A model generated the notes under the pieces. That model saw only the letters and a list, made by a program, of their open reading frames with translations, was not told the DNA's origin and made no database searches. Positions 17,513-42,035 of a DNA stretch of 44,913 nt are shown here, one piece after another; positions within the stretch are counted from its first letter, which is position 1, and every line of letters starts with the position of its first letter. This DNA comes from a virus. Location: positions 1 through 44,913 of IMG/VR virus record IMGVR_UViG_3300037586_001820. One strand, written 5' to 3'. Both the position numbers and the translations under genes were made by a program.

Positions 17513-18267
17513 TAGCTTACCATTCTTCTTTCCGAATTACCTAAGTCTGTATAAAAGGTTCTATGAGCTGTTTGTGATGGTTTTAGTTTTAGCCATTGTA
17601 ATCTTATATTATCCATCATATCTAGGTTTGGCATATTAGCAGATCCTCTAGCTTGTTTAACATACCACTCCCAATCTCTTTGGCTGTCTCTATACATAGC
17701 TTCAGGAACAGATCCAGTTCTCCATCCTATTCTATCAATCATCATTGATATATATGATTTTATAGCTTTTTTATAACTAATATTATCAGGTATCATTGGA
17801 AACCCTTCATCATCGACTTTGATTCCTCGGAAAGCAAATAGTAAGCATCCACTGTCAAATGAAGTTATAATAAAATTGTCATTTGTGTAATAACATTCTC
17901 CTCCTGCATTTTGGCTAGCACCTTCCATTGGAAAGTTAGCTGTATCTACTAATTTCCCATCAATATAATTACTTGCAGTTACTGATGGTGTAGTTGATAT
18001 AGCTCCAAAGGTTCCAGTACATTGTTTTAAAGAACTGCCATTATAAGATATAGAATCTAAAATATGAAGATTACAAGGTAATGGAGCTCTATGCTCTTTT
18101 ACACATACTTCAGCAACTAATTCTTCATATGCAAGTCCTGCACCAATTAGCTCTAATGCTTCTCCTCCCCATTCTATAACATCCCAAATATCAAGTTCTT
18201 CATGAATTGCAGTATCTCTATAGACTCCCTCTATAATTTCTCTTATGGATGTAAATTTATATATCAT
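17512..18267 (-). CDS. Probable tail ring / structural protein
   Basis: This 251-aa protein (MIYKFTSIREIIEGVYRDTA) sits directly before the muzzle gene and resembles the small conserved tail-ring proteins of crAss-like phages. The N-terminal third is helical (IREIIEGVYRD, WGGEALELIGAGLAYEEL). The middle is beta-rich, with GIKVDDEGFPMIPDNISYKKAI, and the C-terminal part is helical and aromatic-rich (RDWEWYVKQARG). The AIKSYI plus Tyr/Trp layout is what I associate with this family. It overlaps the 165-aa gene by four bases (ATGA) and the muzzle gene by one base, so the three are probably co-translated. Likely role: part of the stacked rings joining portal and muzzle. Precise ring identity cannot be told from sequence alone. 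Confidence 0.65.
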   Translation of the reverse strand: MIYKFTSIREIIEGVYRDTAIHEELDIWDVIEWGGEALELIGAGLAYEELVAEVCVKEHRAPLPCNLHILDSISYNGSSLKQCTGTFGAISTTPSVTASNYIDGKLVDTANFPMEGASQNAGGECYYTNDNFIITSFDSGCLLFAFRGIKVDDEGFPMIPDNISYKKAIKSYISMMIDRIGWRTGSVPEAMYRDSQRDWEWYVKQARGSANMPNLDMMDNIRLQWLKLKPSQTAHRTFYTDLGNSERRMVS

Positions 18268-18725
18268 TCAAAATAATCAACTTTTTTATTTTTTAATAAT
18301 GCTGCTAATCTTCTTTTATTCGTTCTTGTAGCTTGAAAACTATATATTGTTTTATTCTTTACTATAGCTTTTTTCTTTGACCAAAACCATCTGTAATTAA
18401 AACCATCAGTATGATCATTCAAATGATATATAATCTTTTTATATTTATTTGTTTCTTGCCAATCTATCTTTAATTTATTCTTACTTATAGAATAATTCAT
18501 TTCTTTTTTTAAAATTCTAAGAGTTCCTAATCTATATGGTAATTTAAATTCTTTAGCATTTAAAAGTATATCATCAATAATCATCTTATTAAATTCTTCG
18601 CAAATACTTCTATATTTCTTATATCCAACTTTATAAAAATCATCATATTCCTTATAAGACTGTCTAAGCGTACAACTACTGACTTTGTTGTTGCTGAGAA
18701 GGTCCTGACACTGAGAGTTCTCCAT
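18264..18725 (-). CDS. Small basic protein of unknown function between two tail-ring genes
   Basis: The frame opens at an ATG at 18761, but I prefer the internal ATG at 18725 (MENSQCQDLL, 153 aa) because it cuts the out-of-frame overlap with the upstream 245-aa gene from 86 to 50 bases. No later start codon exists before the conserved-looking core (LRQSYKEYDDFYKVGYKKY). The protein is very basic and rich in Lys, Tyr and Trp, with RLGTLRILK and WFWSKKKAIVKNKTIY, features that could suit nucleic-acid contact or a small virion protein. A gene of this character occurs near tail-ring genes in other Bacteroidota phages as far as I recall. No function is assigned. It ends in TGA overlapping the ATG of the next gene. 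Confidence 0.7.
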   Translation of the reverse strand: MENSQCQDLLSNNKVSSCTLRQSYKEYDDFYKVGYKKYRSICEEFNKMIIDDILLNAKEFKLPYRLGTLRILKKEMNYSISKNKLKIDWQETNKYKKIIYHLNDHTDGFNYRWFWSKKKAIVKNKTIYSFQATRTNKRRLAALLKNKKVDYFE

Positions 18726-19413
18726 CTTCTTTGGAGTTGTTTGTTTCATCTGTTGGTGCATTTATTATAATATTTATTCTCTTTTGTAATATAATACTTG
18801 TTACTTGTTCTGCCATAGATAAAGAAATAGGAAAAGGAAAATCCCAATCATATTCACATGCGGACAGTATAGGATTAGTTGATGAAGTACAGTTATTTAT
18901 TTTCCAAACCTCTGTAGGATCTTCAAATACTCCTGTAACTTTCACGGCCTCTATTAAGAGATCACAACTTACATATAAGTAGTTGTTTTTGATATACCAT
19001 CGGCCTTGTAAACTCGTATATTTATTATACTTATTCCATTTACGTCTAGTATCAGTAGTCTCAGAAAAAGCTCGCGCTCCATCTAAAGACTCTACAGCTA
19101 ATATACTATCTCTACTGTTCCTCTGAATAGTAACTGGGATAGGATTAATAGACTTTAGTACATGAATTCCTAAATCTAAATCTTCACAGCATTCTGATGC
19201 ATCTACAGGTTTCATCCATACACAATTAAGATATTCCGTACATACGGCCGGTACTCGAACCTTTCGACTCATCAGTTGAGTTAATAACATAGATCTCTCT
19301 TGTAATACCCAATATAAGATTTGTCTCATACTAATATCTGCATCGTCAGCGCTTTCACCTCCGTATGCTATATTTAAAATATCATATACTAATTTGTTTA
19401 CTGTAGTTGCCAT
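18676..19413 (-). CDS. Probable tail ring / connector protein, crAss-like
   Basis: This 245-aa protein begins MATTVNKLVYDILNIAYGGE, a start typical of a conserved crAss-like tail structural (ring) family. Next comes a helical segment MRQILYWVLQERSMLLTQLM, then a beta-rich core with paired cysteines (ASECCEDLD) and WYIKNNYLYVS. The C-terminus ends in a disordered acidic and Gln-rich tail (PSQQQQSQ), stop TAG. It lies between the phosphoesterase and the 165-frame gene, in the run leading to the muzzle. Role inferred: a ring or connector protein of the short tail. Its last 50 bases overlap the next gene in a different frame. Confidence 0.68.
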   Translation of the reverse strand: MATTVNKLVYDILNIAYGGESADDADISMRQILYWVLQERSMLLTQLMSRKVRVPAVCTEYLNCVWMKPVDASECCEDLDLGIHVLKSINPIPVTIQRNSRDSILAVESLDGARAFSETTDTRRKWNKYNKYTSLQGRWYIKNNYLYVSCDLLIEAVKVTGVFEDPTEVWKINNCTSSTNPILSACEYDWDFPFPISLSMAEQVTSIILQKRINIIINAPTDETNNSKEDGELSVSGPSQQQQSQ

Positions 19414-22292: not shown

Positions 22293-22299
22293 TTAGCAA
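22267..22299 (-). promoter_or_regulatory. Possible Bacteroidota-type promoter after the giant gene
   Basis: On the minus strand, TATATTTG (22274-22267) fits TAnnTTTG. A TTG lies 22 bases upstream (22299-22297), at the very end of the giant gene. The -33 element is incomplete and the spacing slightly long, so this is a weak candidate for transcription of the genes from 109 aa to the muzzle. Confidence 0.3.
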
Positions 22300-25200
22300 T
22301 CTGATAGATATTCTTTCCATAAATCATATAACATCTCTGATGTTAAATCTGTTATTACATAATCTGGTATATGGAAAGACATACCATAATTACTTAATGA
22401 ACCTCCTTTATATCCTGTTGTTAAGCTTGGATCTCCTCCTCCTAATGTTCCCATATACTGATTTGGTATAGCAGAATCTGTAACAGCCCAACACTGATGT
22501 CCATATACTAATGGTATAGGAATATAATGTGCACACGAAATATGTCCTAAACTATCAACCGTACCTTCTTTACCTCCTATAGCTTGATATAAATGATAAC
22601 GAAAATCTCTCCTTGCATCAGCCATAGAAGATGATGGTGTTACATCTGAACCAGCATATATCATTGTTTTAGGTTTTGCATCCCATTGAGCTGCATTAGC
22701 AACGCCATTAACATCCCATCCAAATTCATGCAACGACATATAATTAGTATAATCAGTTTTCCAAAGTGTAGTCAATACTCCTCCTGGACCTAATCCATAA
22801 TACCATTGAGTTGATGGTGCGCCATTCCATAATGGAGCTCCACAAACACCTATAGGATTTGTCCAATTATTAGGTGAAGGTACAGATCCAGAAATAAAGT
22901 TAGCCTCATAATATCCAATAGCACTTTCATCTTGGAAAATAATAACAATAGCATCTTTATCTCCTCCTTCAAATTCATGATACGGATCACTCGAACCTGG
23001 TGCCCAACCATTCACGGTATCTGCCCAAGGATCTACTTGATTAAATCCATCATTATATGAAGGATCTCCTGGTAATATTTGTATTTGACGCATTAATGAA
23101 CCATGAAGAGTTTCATCCCATGCAGGTGAATTACAACTCATTGGAAGTCCCCCAATTCCATCTACTTGTGTAGAACCAAATATACATCTTTGTGGATTAG
23201 GTAATGTACCTCCTGTGAATGGATTAGGTGCTGCTCCATTAGCTCCTGCGTTTCCACTTAATGGATACTGAGCCCACATTAACCATTGTTCATGTGATTC
23301 TGTTGGGCCTGGAACCGCCATTGCGCTACCATTATAATCATTACAGGTACCGCTGAGGTGTTGATTCCATGATCCTAATAATATATATAAATGACCAGCA
23401 TAAGAAGGAAATTCACTTTTTATTTGTTGAAAAGCTGGTACTATTACATCCGTTTTAAAAATAGATAGTTGTTGTAATCTATTTGTTGTTGGACCAGCAA
23501 AAGTTGAAGACATATCAAATACAATATAAATATTTGAATTACCAAAACAACTAGTATCACAATTAGTTTCTTGCTCTGTTAATCCATAAGGTAAATTACA
23601 ATCATCGCAGACATCTGCTATTTTTTCAAATAACGCTTTCATTTCTATTTCATTAAAACAATTTACACATAAACCTTCAAATGTTCCTGGTTCAGGTGTT
23701 TCACATGCACAGACTGCTATACAATCTGCTAATGCAGTAGCTCCAGTATATTGACCTAAACCTGTACCAGGATTATAACATCCTACTCCAGGACATTGAC
23801 AATCATATGTTATTGGTTGTGCTGGACAAAGTGGATCAAGTATACATCCAGTACAATTTTGACATGCTAATAATCCTCCATTACTACTATTCCATGTTCC
23901 AGTTCCATCTCCTGGATCACTACATGCTCCTGTAGTATGATCACAATTCCATGATTCTATATAACAGTCAACACAATTTGTAGCTACACAAGCATTACAA
24001 TCTGCTAAAGCTGTTCCTGGATTATTAAAAGTACCTGATCCGGTTGTATTAAGTACACAAGTATACGAAGGTATAGATGAATTAAGAATACAGTCATAAG
24101 TATCGGGAATAGCACTACAACAAGTACCAACAGCTGCCATACAAGCAGCCAGAGTTGGATGAAAGCCAGGACCTGTTCCAGCAGGAACTGCTTGACAAGA
24201 ACACGATGGAGATGTTCCAATACATTCATATTCGTAAGTGGGACAACATGTTGGAACATTAACATGCATAGTAGCACAATCTAGATATCCTCCTGATCCT
24301 AATATAGTCTCACAACAATTAGGTTCAGCTGGATTACATATATAAGTAACAAGAGGACCTCCAAGACATAAAGTACAACTAGGATAAACAGCAGTAACCA
24401 TAGCTATCAGACAGATATTGTTAGTACAATTAATTATATCATCACATTCAACAATCCAACATTCTGAACGACCATCAACCTTTACTATATCTCCATTGTT
24501 TGCAGCATTATATATAGCTGCATTTGGACATATATTATGAAGTACATGATTAGGATCAGTACAATCTGTTAACTTATAACAGTGACAAAAACTATAACAA
24601 TCATCACAATGTTGAACAGGAGGATTATAAGTTACAGCTCCTACTGGGATACAACCTCCTGTTCCGCATGGATCGGGACAAGCTTGTACATTATAACAGT
24701 CATTAGCTATTAATGGAGCTGGTGGAGTTCCTGTTAATTGTACTACTTGACCTACTAATGTACTTAAATTATTTGAAACTGTTGTACATGGAATTGTACA
24801 CCAACAATTCTGCCCATTGATTCCTAGCCTCCCATCAGCAGCAATAAAATTTACATTAGTTATCATATCATAAGCATCATCTCCTGCAATGGCATATGGA
24901 CCAGATGGACCAGGTGCTGCAATAAGATCTGCTAGGGCAACACTCCAAGTAGTATAAACAGTTGTTGGCATTCCAGGTAATGGACCCAGAGTATTATTAT
25001 CATAAATCTGAAATTGTGTCCACGCGTAGACATATAACCCCGCATCAAAACAGATACCTGACGCACCACTAAGTGAATAATATTTATAACTAGCTACAGG
25101 ATTCGCGAAAATTCCATTTGCAGGATCAGTATAATATACAAAAGCTGGAAATGAACCTATATTAGGAAATGGTATTTGTGTAAATGCCGCACAATTATTA

Positions 25201-28200
25201 GTAGCACTTGGTAGATTATTACAAGGACATAAATCATAACAAGCTGTATTCCAACTACAACAATCATTACAATCATAAAATGTATTAACTATTGTTATTG
25301 TAACTACTCCACTTGCTGGACATCCTTGTGCTCCACCAACACAATCAATTTTCCAACAAACTCCTGGATATGCTGCTATTTCAATGTATGGACCATTTCC
25401 TAAAGTTCCATTACAATAATCAGTTAAATCAACATCTGTCCATATCCATGCTGGAGCCCCTGGAATTGTATTACATTGACACAATTCTATTAGCCAACAC
25501 AAATTTGCACCAGTAGTACAATTACTACATACTCCATTTGGATCTCCTACACTAAAAGTAACAGGAGTTGTAAAAGTTGTAACTGGACATGGATTCTCAT
25601 AATCTACTTCCCAACATCTTAAACCCGCAGCATCTCCTGGATCCCACTCTATTACTCCACCTACATAAGGTGCTACACTTAGATCTTGTGTATAATGTAC
25701 CATGTGTACACATCCTAAACATGTACCATCTTCACATCCATAATTTGGATCAGAGTTTCCAAAAACTCCACAAAGACCTCTTCTTTCATATATTCCTTCT
25801 GGGCCTAATAATCCAGTTGGCGCAAAAGTCGCAAATGCTTGAGACATTGGAGTAGGATATCCCATTAACGCATCGTTATTCATGTCAAAACAACCTGCTG
25901 GATTGCATCCAGGTTTCATTTGGTAACATGGACATCCACATGATCCAGTCCCTGAACCCGGAGGATTATCATGACAAGATGCTGGGGATCCCGATTTCGG
26001 GAAAAAATCATGACCTAAACCAAATACATGTAACAATTCATGTAGTCCGATCAGTACAATCTCAAAACTATTAGCTACCACAGCATCTAATTGTTTTCTC
26101 CAATTTTCATTACTATCAAAATGTATAACAGAAGTCCATGGTAAAGATCTAATAGTCGATATAGATCCATTACGACTAACAACATCACCATTCATAGCTG
26201 GCCATGCATATGCTATATTACCTAGTTGAGCTCCTTGAGCCCATCCTCCACAATCAGGAGTAGTAGGACCATATGCAAGTCGAATATCTCCAATATTTGT
26301 ACAACCATTACTATCTGTATATACTCCTGAAACACCTACATTCATTTGTGTTGTAACTGGATTTAATGTTGTAGCGCCTCCTCCTTCCGATCCTAAATCT
26401 GTAAAGTTTACTGTCAGATCTGCTCCATATCCACAAGTAGTATTAAACATACCCTCTAAAGTAGTTTTTAGTTCTGTAAACACAACTCCCATTTCAGTTT
26501 GCCATTGAGCAAATGTAATTGGATAAGTTTTTGTATAAGACGCACATAAATCATTATTACCATTAATATTACCACCAACTCCATTTTCCATTAATATACT
26601 AGTTGGACCAGGATTAGCATTGATACTTAATAGTGTTCCTGCTTTAATAAAACTATAAGTAAAAGCTATAGTTTGATTAGTTCCTGGAGTAAGTGATGTT
26701 CCTAATGCTGCAACTGCATCTTTAAGATCTGTCCATCGATGTGTAACATTACTATAACAAGTAGGAGTCCAACTCTTTCCATAGGTCACCATATTCGGAG
26801 GCATAGTAGCAATATTATCTACTGCACATGCATTATAAAGCGCTCCTGCTGTACAATCACATTCTGTTAATTCATAACAATCTGCAACAGGACTTAAGCA
26901 TATTGGATCCTGACAACTTGGTACTGTAGCAGTTACAGTTTCTGCAGTAATATTTATTGGATCACATGGACATGGAGTATTTAACCAAAATGGAAACCAA
27001 TTACCCATTCTTCTAGCTCCAACTCCATAAGGATTTGCATTAGGAGGATTTGTCGACGGTATTTGAGCCTGGAAATTACCACTAACAATAGAATCATTTA
27101 GATGATCTAATACTAATATAGTATTCTCAGCTCCAAGAGCAAATCCACCAATACCTTTTTGCCAAGCTGTATTTGGAAAACTTTGGTCATTAATGTATGC
27201 TACAAACAACCTTCCATCTGGAGATAAAGTAAAATCTTGCATAACAGCTCCTGTTTCACCAGATTGTTGACACCAACCATCTCCAAAGCCGTTCGTGCAT
27301 CGTGTTGGATTATTCGTTACTGCACTTTCTACCCATCCTGAAGTTGCTCCACTTGTTGATCCATCATCAGGAAAAAACCATAGCATGTTTTGAGACGTAT
27401 ATGTAGGACCAAATACATTACTAGGTAAATCAACACCTATTCTATAAATATCAAACTTATAAATATAAGCTGAATTTTTATCTCTAGCTGAGTCTGAATG
27501 CATACCATGTCCAGTAAAAAACATCTCTCCACTTGAAGAAAATGCACAACAATAATCAGCATCAGGTGCATTGCCACCACTAAAACCCCAATTAGCTGCT
27601 AAAATATAATTATACATTAAACCTGTAGTAGACCCAGGACCAAATGTCCATCCATATGGACCATTACATATCCCTGTAGTCATATCTCTTGAATAAACTT
27701 GTGCTTTTAAAATCTTTGAAGTAAGACCATATGGATTTGGAGCGGTAAGTAAATACATTCTTACTACCAGATATCTATTACATGGACTAACAAGTAATTC
27801 TCCAGTTCCTCTTTCTTGCTTAGTACGTGTTGGTGTTCCAGAACTAGTTCCATAATCTAATGCATAAAAAGGAACACTTATTCCAGCATTACTAAACTTA
27901 ACTCCTCTTACATAATTATTCGCCCAATCAGTTGGAGTAGTCATTGCAGCCATATCATATAAATACCAATGAGGTGATGCACCAATAGAAGTAGTTGTTA
28001 CTGTCATAAATTCACATGAATTAGTATGTAAAACAGTATTCGCTGATGCAACTAATACTTCTCCGGCACCACCATTTAAAGTCATATCAATTATACTATA
28101 TGATATTGGGCCATTATCACAAGTATTATAAATAACATAATATTGATGCCATACATTTCCTGTTTTAGCACCTGCTTCATTAGGGATAACAACACATTGT

Positions 28201-31200
28201 TGTGCTGCATACATTCGACCTTGATATCCAGTATGTCCTAATGCATTTCCTGCATTACCAAGAAATGGGGCTCCACCCACAAGAGTCATTAAAGTATGTG
28301 TTCTATCATATATATATCTACCATCTGAATAAAACATTAAATCTCCCGCTGCAAAAGTATGTCCTCCAATAGTTTGAGCTTCTTGAATACAATGCACCAT
28401 ACTTTGTCTAAACGTATAATTAGTAGGTCCTGCATTATATAAAGTCATATCTGATTGACCACTATAATCTGGCATAGGAGTACCAGTTCTAAAATCAATT
28501 CCTAAATGATCTCCATAAAACCATTGTATACCATGTATAGAATTTGCACTATCACATACACGCCAACAACCTGCTCTTCCTGCTAATGTAACAACATCAG
28601 TTCCAATAACAAGTCCTTGAGCTCCAGTTACTGTAAGAGTTTGAGTTGTATCATCACATCTCTCTAATAATGCACAAAGAGGAGGACAAGGAGCAGTTCC
28701 TGCAGAAGCTTCACATGTAATACAATCACCAAAATTACCACTTCCAACTGTAGCTGTATTAATTGCAGTAATATCAATAGCTGGAATATAATTATTACAT
28801 AAAGGACCTCCAGGATCTGCAGATACAGTCCAACATCCGCTATATATAGTAGCTCCTATTGTTATATCTGCTTCAACAACAGATCCTATATCTGCTACTG
28901 TAATACCACTTACAACATCTACAATTTGATTTGCGACGTATGAAGGACCACAACAATGCTCTACTTGCACACATGTTCTACCTGAAAGATTACAAGCAGT
29001 ACAATCTGCAAAAGGTAAAATAAGAACAGCTATAGGATACACTAAATTAGTAGGTCCTAACATTGAATCTACTAGCCAACAATCTGTATATGGAATTCCT
29101 CCAATATTTAGAGTTAGTCCATTAACTGCTCCTATATATGGCCAAAGAGTTGGAGAAGTATGATAATCTACATAAACAATATTTGTAGCATCCGTACAAT
29201 CAATTAATTTTAAATAAAAATGACAATCACTACATAAGGACGCACTACTAAGAATACTTACTGTAGCTTCACCTCCAGCAGGACCCGTAGGATTAACTGA
29301 AACTTCTCTGCAGAAATTCTCTCCTGTTAATCGTACAACCATTCCTACATAACCTCCAATTCCTGGAGTTCCACTTGGTGTTGCTGTATCATCAGTATAC
29401 AGAATATCAGCAGGATTAAGACAATTTACTAATTGATAATAAAGTACTGGAAGTGCTATACAATCTGAACAAGTACCAAAAGTAGGCAAGACTACTGTAA
29501 ATGCTACAGGTGCAAAACAATTTACAGAATGTTCTACCTCATAACATTGTCCAGTAGCATTCTGTACTATTAATCCTATATAAGCACTTAAATTACTTTG
29601 GCTATAAGTAACAGCACTTGTTGTACAGTCTGTTAATTTATAACAACAAACATCAGGAGCTCCGGTATAACATAATGTACAACTAGCATAAGAAACAAGT
29701 GTATGAGCAATAGGAGTTGGCCACATAGCACATGTATCTCTATAAGCTAATCCTGATGCTGTTCTATTTTCCCAATCTGTAGTTCCAGTAGCTGGATTTA
29801 TTAAATATAAAGGACCTGTTACAAGAGTACCTGCTAAACTACAAGTATATAATTTTATATGGTTTACAAGAGGATTCGAAGTTGGTTCATTAACAAGAAT
29901 CTGTAAAGTAGTAGTTAAATCTTTTTTATTCTCAATACCTATTACAACATCAGTTGCATTTAAGGATAAAGTAATAGTTAAATCAAATGGGCCTGAAATG
30001 ACTGTATGAAGAGCAGAATCAATTTCATAAAGAGAATTACCTCCTCCAGTACCAGCAGCACCACCTATTATAAAATAATCCATAGTTGTATGATGAACTG
30101 TTAAATCAGCATCTCCCGCATCTATCGTCGGATCAGTCCAAGTAGTCACAGGAGTTATTGTACCTGCTAGATCTATAGTTACTATTTGCCATGTAGTTAG
30201 TCCTGCTAGAAATTCAGCAGAAACTAATCGGTTCTGCATATCAAAATCCATTGATGTTGAAACTGTTGTCCCTCCAATATAAAGAAAATTAGAAGGTCCA
30301 TATGGATTAGACCATCCTAACATAGATCCATCAGATTGAACCATATTCCCATGTTTATCAAACGCTAAATCTACATTAACTCCTGGAATCATACCTTGAC
30401 TTACCACAGTACATACACCTGTACTTTCATCTATTCGATATGCATTTCCTGTTCCTACACTCATAAATAATGCTGGATCATTATCAAATACCGTAGTACA
30501 TTTATTACTAGTTGTTTGTTCATGATAAACATCTCCTGCTACTAAAGTCAAATCACTATCGACTCCAACAACCTCCAAAGGAGCATATCCTGATTCATAA
30601 CTACAACAAGTAATTAATAATTTACAGTCTATAGTTGGCAAACAATTTTTACAATCATCATAAGAAGCAACAAAATCTAAAGAAGTACATAAATCAGCCC
30701 ACTCCGGCCCCCAGCTGTACGACCAGTCCACACATTCAAAACATCCCATTAGTTGAAGAACTGTTGGAGGAGGTCCTCCTAAATCAGATTCCCACGTCCA
30801 TACACTATTAGATGAACATAAAGTATCTATAGGAGCCCAATCCGTTGAAGTTACTTTCAAAGGAACTTGCCAAGCAGCCATATCAAGTACTCCAACACTT
30901 TTTACATCTATCGCAATAGGAAGTCCACTTGATAAATACGTAAGTAGTTGTGGATTACTAAGTGCGCCTGTAAGCCAATCACAATCATATCTAGTATCTT
31001 TAGTATAAGCATAAAGATACAAAATTCCAGTGGCTGGATCACCGCCTAATTGAAAATCTATTAAATCGTTAGTTTCTCCTACAGCTGCACAAACATCTCC
31101 TTGATCTACCCATACCCCAGCACCACCACCAGCAGGTAGCCAAGGATTCAAATGCCATATATGTTTTCCAGCAATTACTTTTGCTATGGACTGAGCTGGA

Positions 31201-33161
31201 ACTATAAGAACGTCCATTACAACTAATCCTGTAGGAGGATCAGCGGGAGTAAATTTTTCACCTGCTGTTAATCCTGCTCCAGTAGCAACAGTGGCAGCGC
31301 CTGGGAATGCGCTATAATCTATATTTGCTATTGCAAATTGTCCTACTACATTTGTTTCTCCAAGTGCATAATGAGTTGTACACGTGAGAGGACTAAAACC
31401 TCCGGTAGGATTCACTGACCCATCTGTTTTATAAATAGCAAAAGCTCTAAAATCTGCGGTACCACTTCCCCACCAAGCATCAACAGTTATAGCTTGTCCA
31501 ATAGGAGCTGAAATTGCCCAATAATTAAATCTATGTAAACAATAGTTGCCACTACCTGCGTCACAAAAGAATATATGATATCCATTATACGAATCAACTT
31601 TCAGAGAGAGAATACTATTACCTACTCCACATCCAATGCAAGCAGCAGGTGTTATTGAAGTTAGGAGTGTATTTATCGCAAGTGTCCCTGCAGCCATCTC
31701 TATCTCATATATAGTATCATTATCATCACATATAAAAGCTACGGTATTCTCACATGGTTTTACATAGTAAGTATTACCAAGAGTACCTACTCCACATGCA
31801 TTTATATTTGGCAATCCTTTACTAATTGTTCTTGTACCTACCACAGTTATATCTAGATAATTTTCAGTCCACACAGGTATAGTAGCAGTAGGATCATCTA
31901 TATTATCAAGTACACTTATAAAATCACCAGAATAATATTCTGGATAATCTACAGGATAAGCAGAATATGCACCTGCTGAAATAATATAAGGAGGAGCAGT
32001 AATAAACATTCTATCATTAAATGGATCTCTAACCATAGAAAGAATTTGTCTTTTCGTCGCTCCAGTTGCATCATAAAGACTTGTTGATATACTTCCTCCA
32101 GCTCCAAAAGTATTTACTGCATCTATTATATACCAATTAATCTCAATTTTACTATTTAGCACATTAAAATTAGGAACATAAAGATAAGAAGTAGCAGATG
32201 TACCCACTCTATCCCATTCCACATCATATGCTTTTATCCTAGGAGGAACTCCTGCAGCAGCAGGTACAGCACCATAATCCTTAATAGATATAACTGTAGA
32301 ATTGTAATCTGTAAGAATACCTGTTGTTGGATCAAGAGTGTATACACATAGAAGAGCTGAAGTTTGAGGATGTGCTCCTGTCCCTACCTCAGCTTGATAA
32401 ACTGTTGCTACTTTTGTATTATCTCCATTAATTTTTACACAACTATTAAGTTCAGAAGATTCATTAGGATTATTATATGTGGGACCAATAGCTGACCATA
32501 TAGGAATGGCAGCAGGATCTGGACCATTTCCCCAAGTCCCTCCTCCAGCAGCAGTTAGAAGCCAAGTCATCCAGTTTTGAGTAGCAATATGTGCTTGATG
32601 CGAAATTATTCCTACCCCAGTTTCAACACCTAAAGTCTCCATACACCATCCCGTCATTCTATCATCTACACCATTCGCATTACTTTCTAATAGATGGCCT
32701 ATAGCTGGATCTACTTCTCCTAATCCACCATTTCGACTCATATCTACTACGGAAACCGAAATTCCTCCAGTACCTGGTAAATTTGTAAATACCCAAAAAA
32801 CTTCATTATTTAATCCTTGTGCTCCATTTAAAGTAGTTGGTGCTCTTGCTACAAAAACACATTGAGCTTTTAGATTACCTCCAACTCCCAATCCTGTTGG
32901 AGCAGCTGGACATCCTAACATAAGAGCATGAGTTGAATCCCAAATTTGATGTCCATCAGTATAAAAGAGAATATCACCATCATTATATGTGATAGCTCCA
33001 TATGTTCTAGTTCCGCCAGGAGTTGCAGTATTACAAGTAATAACAGCACTACCAGAAGGTGTAAACATACTAGGTGTAGCAGAAAGATTAGCTACAGTAG
33101 GAGTTAAATCATGTCCTACATTATTTCCATATATAAATTTTTGATAATCTCTTGGTTTCAT
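22293..33161 (-). CDS. Giant modular tail adhesin: host-type propellers, Cys repeats, matrixin-like protease, VWA-like domain
   Basis: This 3622-aa protein has the following order: propeller copy 1 (about 5-435, with DGDILFYTDGHQIWDSTHALM minus its last residue as core); a second beta region to about 770; another propeller-like section (about 870-1140); an array of Cys-framed modules (about 1170-1535) with openings such as CYKLTDC, YYQLVNC and YLKLIDC; propeller copy 2 (about 1540-2060, core DLMFYSDGRYIYDRTHTLM); a further CYELTEC module; a matrixin-like domain with HELLHVFGLGH at 2374-2384; more Cys modules (to about 2930); a tight Cys-rich repeat zone (about 2935-3157); and a VWA-like end with DMSST from D3216. 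No signal peptide is seen. Position after a tail-collar gene and sheer modularity suggest a receptor-binding and surface-degrading fibre. The fibre role is inferred; the motifs are seen directly. Confidence 0.85.
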   Translation of the reverse strand: MKPRDYQKFIYGNNVGHDLTPTVANLSATPSMFTPSGSAVITCNTATPGGTRTYGAITYNDGDILFYTDGHQIWDSTHALMLGCPAAPTGLGVGGNLKAQCVFVARAPTTLNGAQGLNNEVFWVFTNLPGTGGISVSVVDMSRNGGLGEVDPAIGHLLESNANGVDDRMTGWCMETLGVETGVGIISHQAHIATQNWMTWLLTAAGGGTWGNGPDPAAIPIWSAIGPTYNNPNESSELNSCVKINGDNTKVATVYQAEVGTGAHPQTSALLCVYTLDPTTGILTDYNSTVISIKDYGAVPAAAGVPPRIKAYDVEWDRVGTSATSYLYVPNFNVLNSKIEINWYIIDAVNTFGAGGSISTSLYDATGATKRQILSMVRDPFNDRMFITAPPYIISAGAYSAYPVDYPEYYSGDFISVLDNIDDPTATIPVWTENYLDITVVGTRTISKGLPNINACGVGTLGNTYYVKPCENTVAFICDDNDTIYEIEMAAGTLAINTLLTSITPAACIGCGVGNSILSLKVDSYNGYHIFFCDAGSGNYCLHRFNYWAISAPIGQAITVDAWWGSGTADFRAFAIYKTDGSVNPTGGFSPLTCTTHYALGETNVVGQFAIANIDYSAFPGAATVATGAGLTAGEKFTPADPPTGLVVMDVLIVPAQSIAKVIAGKHIWHLNPWLPAGGGAGVWVDQGDVCAAVGETNDLIDFQLGGDPATGILYLYAYTKDTRYDCDWLTGALSNPQLLTYLSSGLPIAIDVKSVGVLDMAAWQVPLKVTSTDWAPIDTLCSSNSVWTWESDLGGPPPTVLQLMGCFECVDWSYSWGPEWADLCTSLDFVASYDDCKNCLPTIDCKLLITCCSYESGYAPLEVVGVDSDLTLVAGDVYHEQTTSNKCTTVFDNDPALFMSVGTGNAYRIDESTGVCTVVSQGMIPGVNVDLAFDKHGNMVQSDGSMLGWSNPYGPSNFLYIGGTTVSTSMDFDMQNRLVSAEFLAGLTTWQIVTIDLAGTITPVTTWTDPTIDAGDADLTVHHTTMDYFIIGGAAGTGGGNSLYEIDSALHTVISGPFDLTITLSLNATDVVIGIENKKDLTTTLQILVNEPTSNPLVNHIKLYTCSLAGTLVTGPLYLINPATGTTDWENRTASGLAYRDTCAMWPTPIAHTLVSYASCTLCYTGAPDVCCYKLTDCTTSAVTYSQSNLSAYIGLIVQNATGQCYEVEHSVNCFAPVAFTVVLPTFGTCSDCIALPVLYYQLVNCLNPADILYTDDTATPSGTPGIGGYVGMVVRLTGENFCREVSVNPTGPAGGEATVSILSSASLCSDCHFYLKLIDCTDATNIVYVDYHTSPTLWPYIGAVNGLTLNIGGIPYTDCWLVDSMLGPTNLVYPIAVLILPFADCTACNLSGRTCVQVEHCCGPSYVANQIVDVVSGITVADIGSVVEADITIGATIYSGCWTVSADPGGPLCNNYIPAIDITAINTATVGSGNFGDCITCEASAGTAPCPPLCALLERCDDTTQTLTVTGAQGLVIGTDVVTLAGRAGCWRVCDSANSIHGIQWFYGDHLGIDFRTGTPMPDYSGQSDMTLYNAGPTNYTFRQSMVHCIQEAQTIGGHTFAAGDLMFYSDGRYIYDRTHTLMTLVGGAPFLGNAGNALGHTGYQGRMYAAQQCVVIPNEAGAKTGNVWHQYYVIYNTCDNGPISYSIIDMTLNGGAGEVLVASANTVLHTNSCEFMTVTTTSIGASPHWYLYDMAAMTTPTDWANNYVRGVKFSNAGISVPFYALDYGTSSGTPTRTKQERGTGELLVSPCNRYLVVRMYLLTAPNPYGLTSKILKAQVYSRDMTTGICNGPYGWTFGPGSTTGLMYNYILAANWGFSGGNAPDADYCCAFSSSGEMFFTGHGMHSDSARDKNSAYIYKFDIYRIGVDLPSNVFGPTYTSQNMLWFFPDDGSTSGATSGWVESAVTNNPTRCTNGFGDGWCQQSGETGAVMQDFTLSPDGRLFVAYINDQSFPNTAWQKGIGGFALGAENTILVLDHLNDSIVSGNFQAQIPSTNPPNANPYGVGARRMGNWFPFWLNTPCPCDPINITAETVTATVPSCQDPICLSPVADCYELTECDCTAGALYNACAVDNIATMPPNMVTYGKSWTPTCYSNVTHRWTDLKDAVAALGTSLTPGTNQTIAFTYSFIKAGTLLSINANPGPTSILMENGVGGNINGNNDLCASYTKTYPITFAQWQTEMGVVFTELKTTLEGMFNTTCGYGADLTVNFTDLGSEGGGATTLNPVTTQMNVGVSGVYTDSNGCTNIGDIRLAYGPTTPDCGGWAQGAQLGNIAYAWPAMNGDVVSRNGSISTIRSLPWTSVIHFDSNENWRKQLDAVVANSFEIVLIGLHELLHVFGLGHDFFPKSGSPASCHDNPPGSGTGSCGCPCYQMKPGCNPAGCFDMNNDALMGYPTPMSQAFATFAPTGLLGPEGIYERRGLCGVFGNSDPNYGCEDGTCLGCVHMVHYTQDLSVAPYVGGVIEWDPGDAAGLRCWEVDYENPCPVTTFTTPVTFSVGDPNGVCSNCTTGANLCWLIELCQCNTIPGAPAWIWTDVDLTDYCNGTLGNGPYIEIAAYPGVCWKIDCVGGAQGCPASGVVTITIVNTFYDCNDCCSWNTACYDLCPCNNLPSATNNCAAFTQIPFPNIGSFPAFVYYTDPANGIFANPVASYKYYSLSGASGICFDAGLYVYAWTQFQIYDNNTLGPLPGMPTTVYTTWSVALADLIAAPGPSGPYAIAGDDAYDMITNVNFIAADGRLGINGQNCWCTIPCTTVSNNLSTLVGQVVQLTGTPPAPLIANDCYNVQACPDPCGTGGCIPVGAVTYNPPVQHCDDCYSFCHCYKLTDCTDPNHVLHNICPNAAIYNAANNGDIVKVDGRSECWIVECDDIINCTNNICLIAMVTAVYPSCTLCLGGPLVTYICNPAEPNCCETILGSGGYLDCATMHVNVPTCCPTYEYECIGTSPSCSCQAVPAGTGPGFHPTLAACMAAVGTCCSAIPDTYDCILNSSIPSYTCVLNTTGSGTFNNPGTALADCNACVATNCVDCYIESWNCDHTTGACSDPGDGTGTWNSSNGGLLACQNCTGCILDPLCPAQPITYDCQCPGVGCYNPGTGLGQYTGATALADCIAVCACETPEPGTFEGLCVNCFNEIEMKALFEKIADVCDDCNLPYGLTEQETNCDTSCFGNSNIYIVFDMSSTFAGPTTNRLQQLSIFKTDVIVPAFQQIKSEFPSYAGHLYILLGSWNQHLSGTCNDYNGSAMAVPGPTESHEQWLMWAQYPLSGNAGANGAAPNPFTGGTLPNPQRCIFGSTQVDGIGGLPMSCNSPAWDETLHGSLMRQIQILPGDPSYNDGFNQVDPWADTVNGWAPGSSDPYHEFEGGDKDAIVIIFQDESAIGYYEANFISGSVPSPNNWTNPIGVCGAPLWNGAPSTQWYYGLGPGGVLTTLWKTDYTNYMSLHEFGWDVNGVANAAQWDAKPKTMIYAGSDVTPSSSMADARRDFRYHLYQAIGGKEGTVDSLGHISCAHYIPIPLVYGHQCWAVTDSAIPNQYMGTLGGGDPSLTTGYKGGSLSNYGMSFHIPDYVITDLTSEMLYDLWKEYLSDC
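22296..23550 (-). other. VWA-like domain at the C-terminus of the giant adhesin
   Basis: The domain opens NSNIYIVFDMSSTF, where a hydrophobic beta strand leads into D-x-S-x-T (D3216, S3218, T3220), the MIDAS metal-site signature. A helix-rich segment (RLQQLSIFKTDVIVPAFQQI) and a second strand (GHLYILLGSWN) follow. A later AIVIIFQDESA strand with acidic residues fits a further MIDAS loop. It could be a metal-dependent adhesion domain at the tip of the fibre. Confidence 0.65.
23690..24360 (-). repeat. Short Cys/Gly repeat zone, about 40 residues per unit
   Basis: About five units follow the pattern Y-x-C-x(4-8)-C-x-C/x-P-G-x-G-x-G-x-F/Y-x(4-8)-A/L-x-x-C-x-x-C, for example PAGTGPGFHPTLAACMAAVG, NTTGSGTFNNPGTALADC, DPGDGTGTWNSSNGGLLAC and NPGTGLGQYTGATALADC. 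The cysteine framework suggests small disulfide-stabilised or metal-binding knots forming a stalk before the C-terminal VWA-like domain. Confidence 0.7.
24370..25710 (-). repeat. Second array of the Cys-framed module
   Basis: Following the protease domain, modules recur with openings MVHYTQD, CWLIELCQC, CYDLCPC, CYNVQACPDPC and CYKLTDC. They have internal CWEVDYE, CWKIDC and CWIVECD elements and ends such as VCSNC, FYDCNDC, CDDCYSFC and YPSCTLC. Spacing is more irregular than in the first array, with one long insert (about residues 2660-2810). Confidence 0.68.
25826..26834 (-). other. Matrixin-like (metzincin) protease domain inside the giant adhesin
   Basis: Residues about 2110-2445 hold IGDIRLAYGP, SVIHFDSNENWR, the complete zinc site HELLHVFGLGH (H2374, E2375, H2378, H2384) and a downstream NDALMGYPTP consistent with the Met-turn. 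All elements of an active metzincin appear intact, with the matrixin-like GDIR and xIHFDxxExW strands. Boundaries are approximate. Confidence 0.82.
26985..28545 (-). repeat. Propeller domain copy 2 of the giant adhesin
   Basis: The copy starts QWFYGDHLGIDFRTGTP and repeats the same landmarks as copy 1: GDLMFYSDGRYIYDRTHTLM, QQCVVIPNEAG, YYVIYN, YSIIDMTLNGGAGEV, then a conserved SPCNRYLVVRMYLL element and CAFSSSGEMFFTG. It is closer than copy 1 to the Bacteroidota gliding/surface propeller pattern. An internal duplication, or separate acquisition, is implied. Confidence 0.75.
28560..29645 (-). repeat. First array of the Cys-framed ~65-residue module
   Basis: At least five consecutive modules open with a C/Y-x-x-L-x-x-C type signature (CYKLTDC, YYQLVNC, YLKLIDC, CVQVEHC, CALLERC), have an internal G-x-x-x-x-hydrophobic strand and CW/CY-x-V element (CYEVEHS, CREVSV, CWLVDS, CWTVSA, CWRVCD), and mostly end F/Y-x-x-C-x-x-C (FGTCSDC, ASLCSDC, FADCTAC, FGDCITC). 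The pattern is repeated but sequence identity is low. Confidence 0.7.
31857..33149 (-). repeat. Propeller domain copy 1 of the giant adhesin (Bacteroidota surface-protein type)
   Basis: The copy starts with YGNNVGHDL and then has NDGDILFYTDG, IWDSTHALM, QCVFVA, FWVFTN, SVVDMSRNGGLGEV and a later ISHQ element. This chain of landmarks (YGNxxGxDF, LLFYTDGxxVWNxxHxxM, QSxxIxPxP, YYIFT, YSIVDMxxNGGxGxV) is the one found in N-terminal propellers of secreted and gliding-associated Bacteroidota proteins. Boundaries are approximate. Confidence 0.72.
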
Positions 33162-33167
33162 TTTATT

Positions 33168-33833
33168 TTAAATTTCTTGTTTTCTATGGCATTCTAATTT
33201 TACCCAATGCTGATTTTCATGAAACCCAGTATTTACAAGATTTGGATCTGCAACACTAATATAAAATTTTCCTTGACCACTTTGATCTAATCCAGGTCCT
33301 CCTCCCATAAATTGAACTATATCACCCCATCCATATATAAGAGTAGCATCAAAAATAAGACTTCCTCTTGCTTCCCAGGCTTGTTTAACATTACCACATA
33401 CACTCCATCCCATAGGACCTATACCATTTAATCCTCCAACACATGGCATTTGAAATCCAACTGGACTACTGCATACTCCAGTTGGAGGTATTAAAGGATT
33501 AATTCCTTGCCATCTAAAATATAAAAATTCTCCTGGAGCAGCATTTGGTCTTGTAATTACTTTTACTACATCTCCATAATTATAAGTAGTAGTACTATTC
33601 CAATAATTTTCTCCATCATTTACCCATTCTATATGGCAAGTACAAGGAAGTACATCATAACATTCAATCATCTCAATATATGCTCCTAGTAATTTTAAAT
33701 TACATAATTCATCTTTACATTCTTTTCCAGCACGTTGTTTATCAACTAATTCTGCTGCTTTAGTTGCAAAACAACATTTAAACTTATTAAGTCTATATTT
33801 TAAATCTTCTGCTGTTATCTGATCTAATGCCAT
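33168..33833 (-). CDS. Surface/tail protein with Cys-rich helical N-terminus and two CBM5/12-like repeats
   Basis: This 221-aa protein has a helical N-terminus (1-60) with several Cys (C20, C21, C39, C44, C58). Two beta units follow: about 78-145 (WNSTTTYNYGDVVKVI, then FLYFRWQGINP) and about 153-213 (IFDATLIYGWGDIVQF, then KFYISVADPN and HWVKLE). Both follow the Y-x-x-GD-x-V...Y...W layout of chitin-binding-type CBM5/12 repeats, often used by phage fibres to touch carbohydrates. It overlaps the tail-collar gene by one base and is six bases from the giant adhesin, so it is probably part of the same appendage. The carbohydrate role is inferred. Confidence 0.72.
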   Translation of the reverse strand: MALDQITAEDLKYRLNKFKCCFATKAAELVDKQRAGKECKDELCNLKLLGAYIEMIECYDVLPCTCHIEWVNDGENYWNSTTTYNYGDVVKVITRPNAAPGEFLYFRWQGINPLIPPTGVCSSPVGFQMPCVGGLNGIGPMGWSVCGNVKQAWEARGSLIFDATLIYGWGDIVQFMGGGPGLDQSGQGKFYISVADPNLVNTGFHENQHWVKLECHRKQEI

Positions 33834-34702
33834 TACAGTTTAATAATATATGCTAAAGTATAATATTCAGGTAATATAGGAAATGCAACGCCTTGTGGAA
33901 AAGTTAATCCAGCAGCCGTTCCATCGCCTGTATTTCCAGATAATACCGTAGTTACTATATGAGTATGAGTATAAGAATCTGTATTACAACCTCCTCCTAG
34001 TGGGGATCCCATTGTTCTAGTTCCTCCTCTCCCAAATTCAGCATCTCTATATGCACCTACTGATGTACCAGAATCTCTTAACCATACATTATGACAATGA
34101 GTATCTGAAGTAATTGTAGGAACGACTGTAAAACTTCCTATATCATGAGTATGTGCAGGAATATTAGCTAACCCCAAATTTACACTAAGTGCTCCCCCTG
34201 AAGCCATAATACCTCCAAAATTAGGATCACCTGCTAAATAAGAAGCAATAAAACGTCCTCTTAAATCAGGTTGTGAGTTAGTTCCATCGGCTAATTGCCA
34301 GCCAATAGGAATATTAGGTATGGTTCCTGACCACATAACAATTATACCTGAGGGAATAGTTGCTCCTCCATTATTAACTATAGTATCTATAAGATTTCCT
34401 ATATTAAGAACTGTATTACATGGAGTTGGAGTAGGTCCCGTAGTAACAATTATATCTCCAATAGTATTACCATCAGTACCATCAGAGATATACATATCTA
34501 CTAAAGTACAACCATCGGTACCATCGGTACCATTTTGTCCATTTACCCCGTTTACTCCGGGAAGTCCCATTGGCCCAGCAGGGCCTTGGGGTCCTGTATC
34601 TCCTACAGGAATATCACAACTATTAGCTTCTGCACATGTTGTACAGTCGCATGCACATAGTTGAGGATTTAAACATCCATTACTACAATTTTCACATGCC
34701 AT
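33833..34702 (-). CDS. Phage tail-collar fibre protein with collagen-like stalk and Cys-dense N-terminus
   Basis: This 289-aa protein has three parts. Residues 3-29 contain eight Cys (3, 6, 10, 16, 18, 20, 23, 29). Residues 34-64 are ten collagen-type GXY triplets (GDT GPQ GPA GPM GLP and so on). Residues about 115-289 form a phage tail-collar domain: SGIIVMWSGTIPNIPIGWQL, ADGTNSQPDLRGRFI, LANIPAHTHD, a second HTH motif near the end, and FPILPEYYTLAYIIKL. Such proteins are trimeric fibres or collars. The Cys-dense head is unusual and could bind zinc or cross-link the trimer. Its one-base overlap with the next gene (TAATG) supports joint production with the neighbouring adhesion proteins. Confidence 0.88.
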   Translation of the reverse strand: MACENCSNGCLNPQLCACDCTTCAEANSCDIPVGDTGPQGPAGPMGLPGVNGVNGQNGTDGTDGCTLVDMYISDGTDGNTIGDIIVTTGPTPTPCNTVLNIGNLIDTIVNNGGATIPSGIIVMWSGTIPNIPIGWQLADGTNSQPDLRGRFIASYLAGDPNFGGIMASGGALSVNLGLANIPAHTHDIGSFTVVPTITSDTHCHNVWLRDSGTSVGAYRDAEFGRGGTRTMGSPLGGGCNTDSYTHTHIVTTVLSGNTGDGTAAGLTFPQGVAFPILPEYYTLAYIIKL

Positions 34703-36821: not shown

Positions 36822-37526
36822 TTACTCTTGTGTCATTTCCGCAATCATATGACTTTGGAACCTTGGACTAGCTATATTCTCTAACGCTAGTGTAACTGCT
36901 CCTTCACAAATCTCTTGATGAGTATGAATTGCTAATTCACAATCAGCTCCTGGCGAATTGATTATATCTAATCTTCTTGGTTCTCTCACATATCTCAGAA
37001 AATAACGATTTATTGTAAAACTTCCATCAGTTAATAACTCAGCCCATTGCCCATGCATTAATCGTAGAACTACATCTTTTGTAGGTCCATTAAATGGATC
37101 ATAAATAAGTTTATTATAATCCTCATGAGATGTGGCATAGACTCCTGTTCTTTCATCTACCCAACTGCCATTGCAGTTTTCATAACGAATTTCACATTCT
37201 TCGTTAATGGCGAACCAATAAATGTTCGGACCTCCTGCAGTACCATTTGGTAAATCAAATAATATACCGCCTGGTTTAACAGGAGTTTGAATCGCAGATG
37301 GAATCAAAGTTGTCTCAGTTATAATTGTTCTCAGATCATCAGTTCTCTTTTGAGTTTCCTCAAGAGATTCTTTCTTAGGATCATGAGAGTATCTCTGTTT
37401 TACAAAACGATCTTGAGACTTATTTAGCCACAGATCGATCTCTTCCGGTTCAAAGTTAGGGTAGTTAAGACTATCTGTCTTATCTAACCCTACCTTGAAT
37501 TCTATATGCATTTCCGCTAATGTCAT
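36822..37526 (-). CDS. Ring/connector-type tail protein, crAss-like
   Basis: This 234-aa protein starts MTLAEMHIEFKVGLDKTDSL, followed by YPNFEPEEIDLWLNKSQDRF, an opening I associate with a conserved crAss-like head-tail connector (ring) family. The core has TLIPSAIQTPVKPGGILFDL, beta strands with aromatic residues (YWFAINEE), a RYFLRYVREPRRLDI strand and a C-terminal helix (HQEICEGAVTLALENI). These proteins stack beneath the portal in crAss-like virions. Its ATG overlaps the stop of the 254-aa gene by one base. The ring number cannot be assigned. Compared with the 245-aa and 251-aa genes it lies much nearer the capsid gene. Confidence 0.75.
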   Translation of the reverse strand: MTLAEMHIEFKVGLDKTDSLNYPNFEPEEIDLWLNKSQDRFVKQRYSHDPKKESLEETQKRTDDLRTIITETTLIPSAIQTPVKPGGILFDLPNGTAGGPNIYWFAINEECEIRYENCNGSWVDERTGVYATSHEDYNKLIYDPFNGPTKDVVLRLMHGQWAELLTDGSFTINRYFLRYVREPRRLDIINSPGADCELAIHTHQEICEGAVTLALENIASPRFQSHMIAEMTQE

Positions 37527-38318: not shown

Positions 38319-39770
38319 TTAACTATTTGGTGCTACTTTAGTACAAATCAATTCACCACAAGCCATAGGATTTTTAATCATAATACCACACTCAGTTAAC
38401 ATATGAACTGAATAACCATCAAGATTATCCGATCTCATTGTATTAACTGATTTAGCTGTATTTCCAAATGGATCTACAGAACCAGCAGTATGCCACATCA
38501 TATCCTTAGAATTTTTCTTATGAACAGCAGAAATGTTTGATTCTCCACCGGCCATACCAAAGTCAAGGAATGTAAATCTGTAAGACTCGATAGGTCTTCC
38601 AGAATCAGCATGTAGTTGTCTGTTAATTACAGTATTATCATATAATGGTAAATGTTTAAGAGTAATCTTAGTACCATTTAATCCTAGGTAAGTTTTAAAC
38701 TGACCTCCTAAAGATAGATTTTGCCCGCTACCAGTGATAAATGTTGAATCTACAAGAGTCCAGTTAGACGCTGCTGTTTTCATAGCTCTATCGAATTCTG
38801 CGAATCCGTATTCACCTGTAAACGCAACAAACTGTCTTGAAGATTCTGGTATTACATTATAAGAAAGATCAATTAAGAAATCTCTTACAATACCCTCAGT
38901 TAAATCTGTATAAAATCTACGATTTGCTGGAGCGATTTGTTGTCTAATTCCAGCACCTTCATAAACTGGAAGACCATTGTCACCTAACATACTTGTAACA
39001 CCTTGGGCGTTAGCAGAGAATGTAGAATACCAATACGATCTTTCAACTTCTCGATACCACTGAGCCATAGCTTCCCATTCCGCAAACCTAGTCCACACTG
39101 TGGTCTTTTTGCTTGGGTTAGCTGGGTCAGATAGTTGTATAACAAGAGCATCTGTTGCTGCACTTCTTGTTACTGTGTACGACTTTCTTAAAGTCGATAA
39201 ATGATTTCTCATTTTAAAAGGAGCACTAAAAGTAGTGTTACCTCCTGTAGAAAATTCTGGTACGGTAGTATACTCTTTCGAGAACTCACTACCTGCGTCG
39301 ATCAATGTAAGAGGCATAAATACAGTTGGATCTGGTGTGGTTAACCTTACGGTATATACCCAATCAGAACCATCAAAATATGGATCTTCCATTACTCTAA
39401 CTCTAAAGTCACGATCATCAGCTACCAAAACATCTTGATTCGCAAACCACTTTTCTTTGAACGTAATCCTGAAAGTAGTTCCGTTTTGACCAGGGTAAAT
39501 CCCCCCGTCTCCTAAGTTACCGCTCACTGGAATTGCCTTCTCATCATCACCTTGTAAATGCCAATCATATTCTCTATTACCAAGTTCTTTGTCCCTACCC
39601 ATTCCACTAGTTAAATATTGGATAGGATTAGAACCTTGCATTCCGAAGATACGAGTCACTAATGTACTCATAACTTCTGGCTCAGTTAAATATGCTGACG
39701 AAAGATGATTTTGTTGGGTTAATCCAGAGTGCCACTTAGTTCTATATAATTGCAATCCGTTTATAGCCAT
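38319..39770 (-). CDS. Major capsid protein (probable HK97 fold)
   Basis: This 483-aa protein begins MAINGLQLYRTKWHSGLTQQ, close in size and style to crAss-like major capsid proteins (about 490 residues). Features include an N-terminal arm with LSSAYLTEPEVMSTLVTRIF, a long beta-rich central region (RVRVMEDPYFDGSDWVYTVR), a helix-rich block with WYREVERSYWYSTFS, and RRFYTDLTEGIVRDFLIDLS. The C-terminal part contains FTFLDFGMAGGESNISAVHK. It lies directly after a charged scaffold-like gene, as in most tailed phages, and before connector proteins. No protease is adjacent, so any N-terminal processing cannot be predicted. The capsid identity is the best explanation of length, order and composition. 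Confidence 0.85.
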   Translation of the reverse strand: MAINGLQLYRTKWHSGLTQQNHLSSAYLTEPEVMSTLVTRIFGMQGSNPIQYLTSGMGRDKELGNREYDWHLQGDDEKAIPVSGNLGDGGIYPGQNGTTFRITFKEKWFANQDVLVADDRDFRVRVMEDPYFDGSDWVYTVRLTTPDPTVFMPLTLIDAGSEFSKEYTTVPEFSTGGNTTFSAPFKMRNHLSTLRKSYTVTRSAATDALVIQLSDPANPSKKTTVWTRFAEWEAMAQWYREVERSYWYSTFSANAQGVTSMLGDNGLPVYEGAGIRQQIAPANRRFYTDLTEGIVRDFLIDLSYNVIPESSRQFVAFTGEYGFAEFDRAMKTAASNWTLVDSTFITGSGQNLSLGGQFKTYLGLNGTKITLKHLPLYDNTVINRQLHADSGRPIESYRFTFLDFGMAGGESNISAVHKKNSKDMMWHTAGSVDPFGNTAKSVNTMRSDNLDGYSVHMLTECGIMIKNPMACGELICTKVAPNS

Positions 39771-41150: not shown

Positions 41151-42035
41151 CTAATAACGATAAGAAGGATTAGCCGCTTTCCACTGTTCATATCCATAAT
41201 TTACATTATTCCACTTGGATGTCATATATCCTTTAGGATGCTTATAAGGTGTAGAATTTTCTGCTTTGTATTTCTTTTTGTCCATCATCCATAATACATA
41301 CTTCTCATTTTCTTCACCTCCTTTAGTATACCAAGTTCTCCATCCTCCTTCTTTTTCTTTCTCTGTTAATTTGGCCCACATCTCATTAAAGTTCCTTGGT
41401 CCCATATTATATGCAGAAAATGCTCTAGCTTGTCTTTCAGTTTTATTTGGTGCTGATGCTACATTATCTATATCTGTATATAAATGATCCATATATCTTC
41501 TTTGAGCCAAAGAAGAACCAGCCTCGTCTATAATTTTTATAGTTTCCGGAATCCATCCTTTTTCTTTAGCCCATTTAAATGTGCTGGGTAAAAACTGTGC
41601 AACTCCCATAGCTCCTCTAGATGAAACTTTAGTTTTATCTCCAGTAGATTCTTTCCAGATTTGAGATAAAAACTGTTCTTCAGTAAAATTAGTATTTTGA
41701 TAATTATCTAATTGGGAATTAACCAACTGTTCATTCATCGTACGATAAGTTTCATTTCCCCAAGTACTATCAGGAACAATATCAAATCCTTTTCCTATTA
41801 AATAATTTTGAGTGCTTCCTATAATTTCTTTATCTTCTTTATTCTCTTGATAATATTTTTTATCAACCCATCCATCTTTATTTACTTTAATAGCTGGATC
41901 ATCTTCTTGAGTAGATTGTGTTTTAGTAATATCAGATAAACTTAATTTATTTTTAAAATATGCATCTCCCATTTTATCTTGTGGTTCTCCTCCGTTGCCA
42001 AAGTCGCGTTGAAATAGATTAAATTTCTTACCCAT
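41151..42035 (-). CDS. Virion lytic transglycosylase with peptidoglycan-binding-like segment
   Basis: This 294-aa protein contains a goose-lysozyme/SLT-type transglycosylase domain: FLSQIWKESTGD with catalytic Glu at 129, SSRGAMGVAQFLPST (138-152) and SAYNMGPRNF (207-216), in the usual order. Before it, STQNYLIGKGFDIVPDSTWG (74-93) resembles a peptidoglycan-binding-1 helix motif. The family cuts the glycan strand to anhydro-muramyl ends. Encoded between portal and scaffold it is probably a virion component that opens the wall at DNA entry rather than a lysis endolysin. It ends TAG followed immediately by an in-frame TAA, and its ATG overlaps the portal stop by one base. Confidence 0.88.
   Translation of the reverse strand: MGKKFNLFQRDFGNGGEPQDKMGDAYFKNKLSLSDITKTQSTQEDDPAIKVNKDGWVDKKYYQENKEDKEIIGSTQNYLIGKGFDIVPDSTWGNETYRTMNEQLVNSQLDNYQNTNFTEEQFLSQIWKESTGDKTKVSSRGAMGVAQFLPSTFKWAKEKGWIPETIKIIDEAGSSLAQRRYMDHLYTDIDNVASAPNKTERQARAFSAYNMGPRNFNEMWAKLTEKEKEGGWRTWYTKGGEENEKYVLWMMDKKKYKAENSTPYKHPKGYMTSKWNNVNYGYEQWKAANPSYRY

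Follow-up and report, generated by a model that had tools for sequence, protein, structure and literature searches.

What might a phage do with a single protein of 3622 residues encoded among its virion genes? The question is raised by a 44,913-base virus record, IMGVR_UViG_3300037586_001820, which was analysed over its whole length (the window). A preliminary description of this DNA, made from the letters alone, had reported a frame that joins four classes of module (propellers, Cys-framed repeats, a protease and a VWA-like domain), knew of no comparable phage protein, and proposed a role in binding and perhaps trimming host surface proteins. Crassvirales, the order to which the window belongs, are very abundant phages whose described spikes target polysaccharides; to our knowledge, few of the receptors and proteins used in their adsorption have been identified.

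A giant gene between the tail ring genes of a crassvirus

The window certainly derives from a Crassvirales phage: capsid, muzzle, ring and portal genes were all identified, confirming its phage origin. The giant gene is, as described, one uninterrupted frame; it is read on the minus strand (Table 1). Along that strand the genes run in the order portal, scaffold-like gene, major capsid protein, ring 3/4, head-type genes, collar/collagen fibre gene, 221-aa gene, giant gene, small genes, phosphoesterase, ring 2, ring 1 and muzzle. The 221-aa gene has no homologue among annotated phages. In crAss001, gp36 (auxiliary capsid protein) and gp38 and gp39 (tail hub) lie between gp35 (R3) and gp40 (R2) (PMC10172136). 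The giant gene, located between the ring 3/4 and ring 2 genes, therefore falls within the virion gene cluster.

Table 1 Features of the giant protein and its neighbours (window positions)
Feature	Position	Strand	Evidence or remark
Giant ORF, 3622 aa, adhesin-protease candidate	22293..33161	-	homologues at same locus in at least 14 IMG/VR contigs
Propeller 1, residues 1-480, from N-terminus	31722..33161	-	Bacteroidota propeller HMM 1.2e-19; hhalign; monophyletic across relatives
Middle region, residues 501-1164	29670..31661	-	unassigned; second half with NHL/lactonase-like FDKHGN blade motifs
First Cys repeat array, 5 units, residues 1173-1542, last partial	28536..29645	-	iterated HMM, per-unit E 8e-20 to 3e-6
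Propeller 2, residues 1543-2062	26976..28535	-	Bacteroidota HMM 3.4e-24; AF2 all-beta; Foldseek
Metzincin domain, about residues 2115-2470	25752..26819	-	PF00413 Matrixin; best PDB profile match karilysin
Zinc site HELLHVFGLGH, residues 2374-2384	26010..26042	-	motif conserved in relatives
Met-turn ALMG, residues 2431-2434	25860..25871	-	Met in one column in all 11 alignment rows
Second Cys repeat array, 4 units, residues 2481-2932, variable insert	24366..25721	-	iterated HMM
Cys-rich linker, residues 2933-3160, 30 Cys in 228 aa	23682..24365	-	
C-terminal alpha/beta domain, residues 3161-3622	22296..23681	-	VWA-like at best
DMSST motif after first predicted strand, residues 3216-3220	23502..23516	-	D-x-[ST]-S-x in relatives
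221-aa gene directly upstream of giant gene	33168..33833	-	adjacency to giant gene conserved
289-aa collagen/tail-collar fibre protein	33833..34702	-	phrog_8469/1800 tail fibre, E 1e-12
Tail ring protein 3/4	36822..37526	-	PF25710, E=7e-22
Crassvirus major capsid protein	38319..39770	-	PF23898, E=7e-143
Tail ring protein 2	18676..19413	-	PF25702, E=3e-37
Tail ring protein 1	17512..18267	-	PF24228, E=1e-56
Crassvirus muzzle protein	12026..17512	-	PF25731, E=5e-144

Two propellers related to type-IX-secreted proteins

The two propeller copies, first noticed through shared landmarks, are homologous to each other in profile-profile comparison (hhalign 99.5%, E=1.1e-22). We built an HMM from 63 bacterial domains found by querying with copy 2, and it matched the giant protein at residues 55-332 and again at residues 1546-1905. 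Because copy 1 was absent from the original query, its match is an independent confirmation. The beta-propeller fold was assigned from a structure model for copy 2 and by homology only for copy 1. Overall pLDDT of the AF2 model was 46, with the propeller 2 part mostly at 60-86 over model residues 65-330, and Foldseek matched copy 2 to 39 PDB entries at E<=1e-3, solved beta-propellers by name. Sialidases rank high in this fold list and a sialidase function was considered; it was rejected, as there is no Asp-box motif.

We scanned GTDB with copy 2, taking one genome per species, and recovered 79 loci, almost all labelled Bacteroidota and one Myxococcales; the propeller was present in 36 of 198 Bacteroidota genomes. 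The bacterial propeller proteins that we inspected mostly begin with a signal-like stretch, and those scanned carry the CHU_C/TIGR04131 sorting domain of the type IX secretion system (T9SS), several together with PKD domains. Judged by sequence, the phage propellers are thus homologous to a propeller carried by type-IX-secreted Bacteroidota surface proteins. The bacterial proteins (e.g. L031 and L050) have a signal peptide, PKD domains and the sorting domain, whereas the phage protein has none of these and instead adds the metzincin, the Cys repeats and a C-terminal domain of its own; no export signal was seen at its N-terminus, and no match to TIGR04131/CHU_C was found.

In a tree of these domains, each phage copy forms its own fully supported clade, and both copies therefore predate the radiation of the phage clade. 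All phage copies group with two Cytophagales sequences (support 0.86). L028 (L028:4165-9552), a 1796-aa protein from a Flammeovirgaceae MAG with two WYFG motifs, a PKD domain, a sub-threshold SprB-repeat match and CHU_C, groups with the phage copies; its two WYFG motifs suggest tandem propellers.

A third propeller possibly occupies the second half of the middle region. Residues 840-1164 gave one weak Pfam beta-propeller match, in one relative, and their hhalign comparison with propeller 1 was not significant.

Cys repeats and a metzincin domain

The Cys-framed repeats of the preliminary description are real: there are nine units, one of which is partial, with lengths of about 60-87 residues, in one array of five and one of four, and their positions match in the relatives. 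The giant protein contains 172 Cys, of which 138 are shared by 70% or more of the relatives; of ten residue types compared, Cys is by far the best conserved. A repeat model that does find the units in phage records gave no match in 198 Bacteroidota genomes, and the repeat looks phage-specific. Such disulfide-capable repeats would suit an oxidising exterior.

Between the second propeller and the second array lies a domain containing HELLHVFGLGH, a motif expected by chance only 5e-5 times. HExxHxxGxxH is intact in every relative spanning the site, including those with 27-31% domain identity. The Met-turn that follows reads ALMG or AIMA in all but L019, in which the aligned methionine lies within SFPMG. 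PF00413 Matrixin was the best Pfam family in 11 of the 11 members scanned (best 6.5e-6), the match lying mainly over the active-site part and, for the window protein, 0.3 bits under the Pfam cut-off. In a profile search of the PDB, the top sequence match was karilysin (E=0.005). Single-sequence searches of Pfam, PHROGs, NCBIfam and the PDB returned little besides Matrixin.

The predicted order of strand, long helix, strands, active-site helix and C-terminal helix is compatible with a metzincin, in a low-confidence part of the AF2 model; because of that low confidence, the assignment of the fold rests on sequence. Together these matches support the identification of the central domain as a metzincin, in agreement with the protease first proposed from the motif, and we predict that it is catalytically competent.

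The C-terminal domain is VWA-like at best

In near relatives, no part of the protein is better conserved than the C-terminal domain, which is 51-59% identical to that of the window; it was found in 0 of 198 Bacteroidota genomes. The D-x-S-x-T motif read earlier as the MIDAS of a VWA-like domain did not bear this weight. D.S.[ST] occurs four times in the giant protein, against about 2.3 expected by chance. Across relatives DMSST takes the form D-x-[ST]-S-[T/A/V/I]. Further along the domain, another strand has FQDES at its end; the first Asp and the Asp of FxDES are conserved except in L019, and the third MIDAS position is variable. In L019 both acidic residues of this MIDAS-like pair are lost together while the protease site is kept, a joint loss that hints at a shared metal-binding or structural role.

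A Pfam scan of the domain gave no VWA match, and its hhalign comparison with 22 VWA stretches from Bacteroidota loci was not significant (P=0.11). Foldseek with the C-terminal model, itself of low confidence (pLDDT 48), gave no match at E<=1e-3; the weak list includes the VWA-type proteins Sec23/24, SpaC, Ku80 and factor B, from a model too poor for use. Only the predicted alpha/beta order is compatible with VWA; we describe the region as an alpha/beta domain, VWA-like at best. Of the four module classes of the preliminary description, sequence supports three (propellers, Cys repeats and metzincin), and the VWA label is not established.

Distribution and conservation of the giant gene

No homologue of the giant gene was detectable among 50,697 annotated phage records, 147 of which encode the crassvirus capsid protein. 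Profile searches found it in at least 14 IMG/VR contigs, besides one contig identical to the window. Its neighbours are the same in all relatives, where present on the contig, and the crassvirus capsid protein is encoded by all six relatives tested. Complete copies have 3591-4147 residues, L019 (4147 aa) being the most divergent. The impression that no such phage protein was known holds for annotated phage genomes, but a close homologue, the viral protein A0A516LFR9 (37% over 1063 columns), is already in UniProt; as far as our tools show, the family has been deposited but not named.

In one contig, L011 (IMGVR_UViG_3300033144_001419), the gene is split at 13266-13300, with a second, overlapping frame encoding the C-terminal domain; the split may be a sequencing frameshift, and every other contig spanning the region keeps a single frame. 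Among near relatives the N-terminal part is the most variable. We rejected this N-to-C trend as proof of polarity, since the distant relatives L016-L019 reverse it.

Proposed role and alternatives

Homology to surface propellers, Cys repeats and a conserved protease site make the modules of the giant protein, as far as homology can tell, ones of surface type; with the tail-gene location, they fit the earlier suggestion that it binds and may trim host surface proteins. Our main reading, to which we give a probability of about 0.5, is that it is a virion-borne, outward-facing adhesin-protease that binds and cleaves host surface proteins, in a crAss-like clade infecting Bacteroidota. We hold with more confidence that it is a surface-exposed virion protein. 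The gene, its clade and position, the homology of its modules and the conservation of the zinc site are established here; we infer the virion location, polarity, substrate and protease activity.

The protein would probably attach near the tail collar, where other crassviruses have fibre-docking genes. The two propellers would bind a protein of the host surface, or a partner of such a protein, and the disulfide-clamped Cys repeats would act as stiff spacers or rigid arms. Near the bound receptor, the central metzincin would cut host surface proteins, for example T9SS adhesins or lipoproteins, and so uncover the receptor or set it free. The C-terminal domain, specific to the phages, may dock the protein to the virion or act as a second head for binding; no recognised virion-docking domain was found in the protein. 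Such a mechanism agrees with evidence for control of phage resistance by gliding/T9SS genes in Flavobacteriia, for a dependence of Bacteroidota phages on gliding/T9SS proteins during adsorption, and for T9SS adhesins as possible receptors (PMC9233685, PMC13288928). More tentatively, and with rather less confidence than in the main reading, we suggest that a class of crAss-like phages penetrates the proteinaceous Bacteroidota surface with a matrixin-type protease mounted on the virion, its propellers having been captured from host T9SS surface proteins and steering the enzyme.

Other explanations differ in what the protease does. The protein might be a non-catalytic or mainly structural fibre: a very large tail appendage, rich in disulfides, in which the metzincin and the propellers serve only as scaffolds for binding. 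Enzyme folds are often reused for binding, and L019 lacks both acidic residues of the C-terminal motif, but the survival of HExxHxxGxxH and the Met-turn methionine at 27-31% domain identity argues for selection on catalysis, and we regard this reading as unlikely. A maturation protease that cleaves its own protein or neighbouring virion proteins, leaving mature pieces to bind, would account for a polyprotein-like size and multi-domain layout and for the separate C-terminal frame of L011. Given that this split may be an artefact confined to one contig, and that the Cys-rich setting suggests extracellular action, we consider such self-processing quite improbable.

The remaining alternatives concern where the protein acts. 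We think it equally improbable that it is a head fibre or capsid decoration, by which the capsid would adhere to mucus, particles or biofilm: crAss001 head fibres are thought to bind the host or the environment (PMC10172136), and neighbours of 201 aa and 289 aa lie between head and tail genes, but the giant gene is closest to the tail-ring and hub genes and its product is unlike the crAss001 head fibres, roughly 100 aa, in size. Least likely of all is a protein directed at the host, produced during infection and then displayed or secreted by the infected cell, for instance to exclude superinfecting phages or to compete with host adhesins; its homologues in the host are indeed T9SS-secreted, yet the phage protein has neither a visible signal peptide nor a sorting-domain match, and its gene lies among virion genes. 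Speaking against the adhesin-protease reading, the neighbouring collar-fibre gene (33833-34702) could encode the real receptor-binding protein.

Relation to known systems

The tail fibres and spikes of other Crassvirales (gp22 and the unresolved cage fibres of crAss001; the BACON-domain spikes of p-crAssphage) come from the same phage order and are likewise products of structural-region genes. Like the giant gene, this fibre and spike gene content is lineage-specific and fast-changing (PMC10136315). Known spikes carry carbohydrate-binding or glycoside hydrolase, phosphatase and CHAP domains, and that review mentions no protease (PMC10136315). Annotated crassviruses show no sequence match to the giant protein. 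The proposed matrixin-bearing appendage would be the proteolytic counterpart of polysaccharide-depolymerising tail spikes.

Karilysin and other matrixins (M10) share HExxHxxGxxH, the Met-turn and local sequence similarity with the phage metzincin, which, unlike them, is embedded in a phage protein of 3600 aa. A metzincin of phage origin is also known from a metzincin-TIMP pair of Listeria; it is a small secreted protease with an inhibitor, whereas the giant protein is an adhesin candidate encoded in a structural gene module (PMC8235301). Phage adhesins with an attached enzyme are already known, and it is this domain set that is unusual: a metzincin together with T9SS-homologous propellers in one protein was not found in the literature searched. 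An intact-looking zinc protease joined to T9SS-related propellers points to a protein-directed entry route and a testable class of targets, and links the giant protein to the Flavobacteriia resistance data cited above.

Other genes of the cluster

Within the tail-ring cluster, positions 19417-20565 (minus strand) encode a 382-aa calcineurin-like phosphoesterase with a NUMOD/I-HmuI-like N-terminal domain, which is kept in relatives. A 294-aa gene between the portal and scaffold-like genes (41151-42035, minus strand) resembles, by eye, an SLT-type lytic transglycosylase. The window yielded a single ring 3/4 gene, whereas crAss001 has separate R3 and R4 genes; the tail barrel may be shorter.
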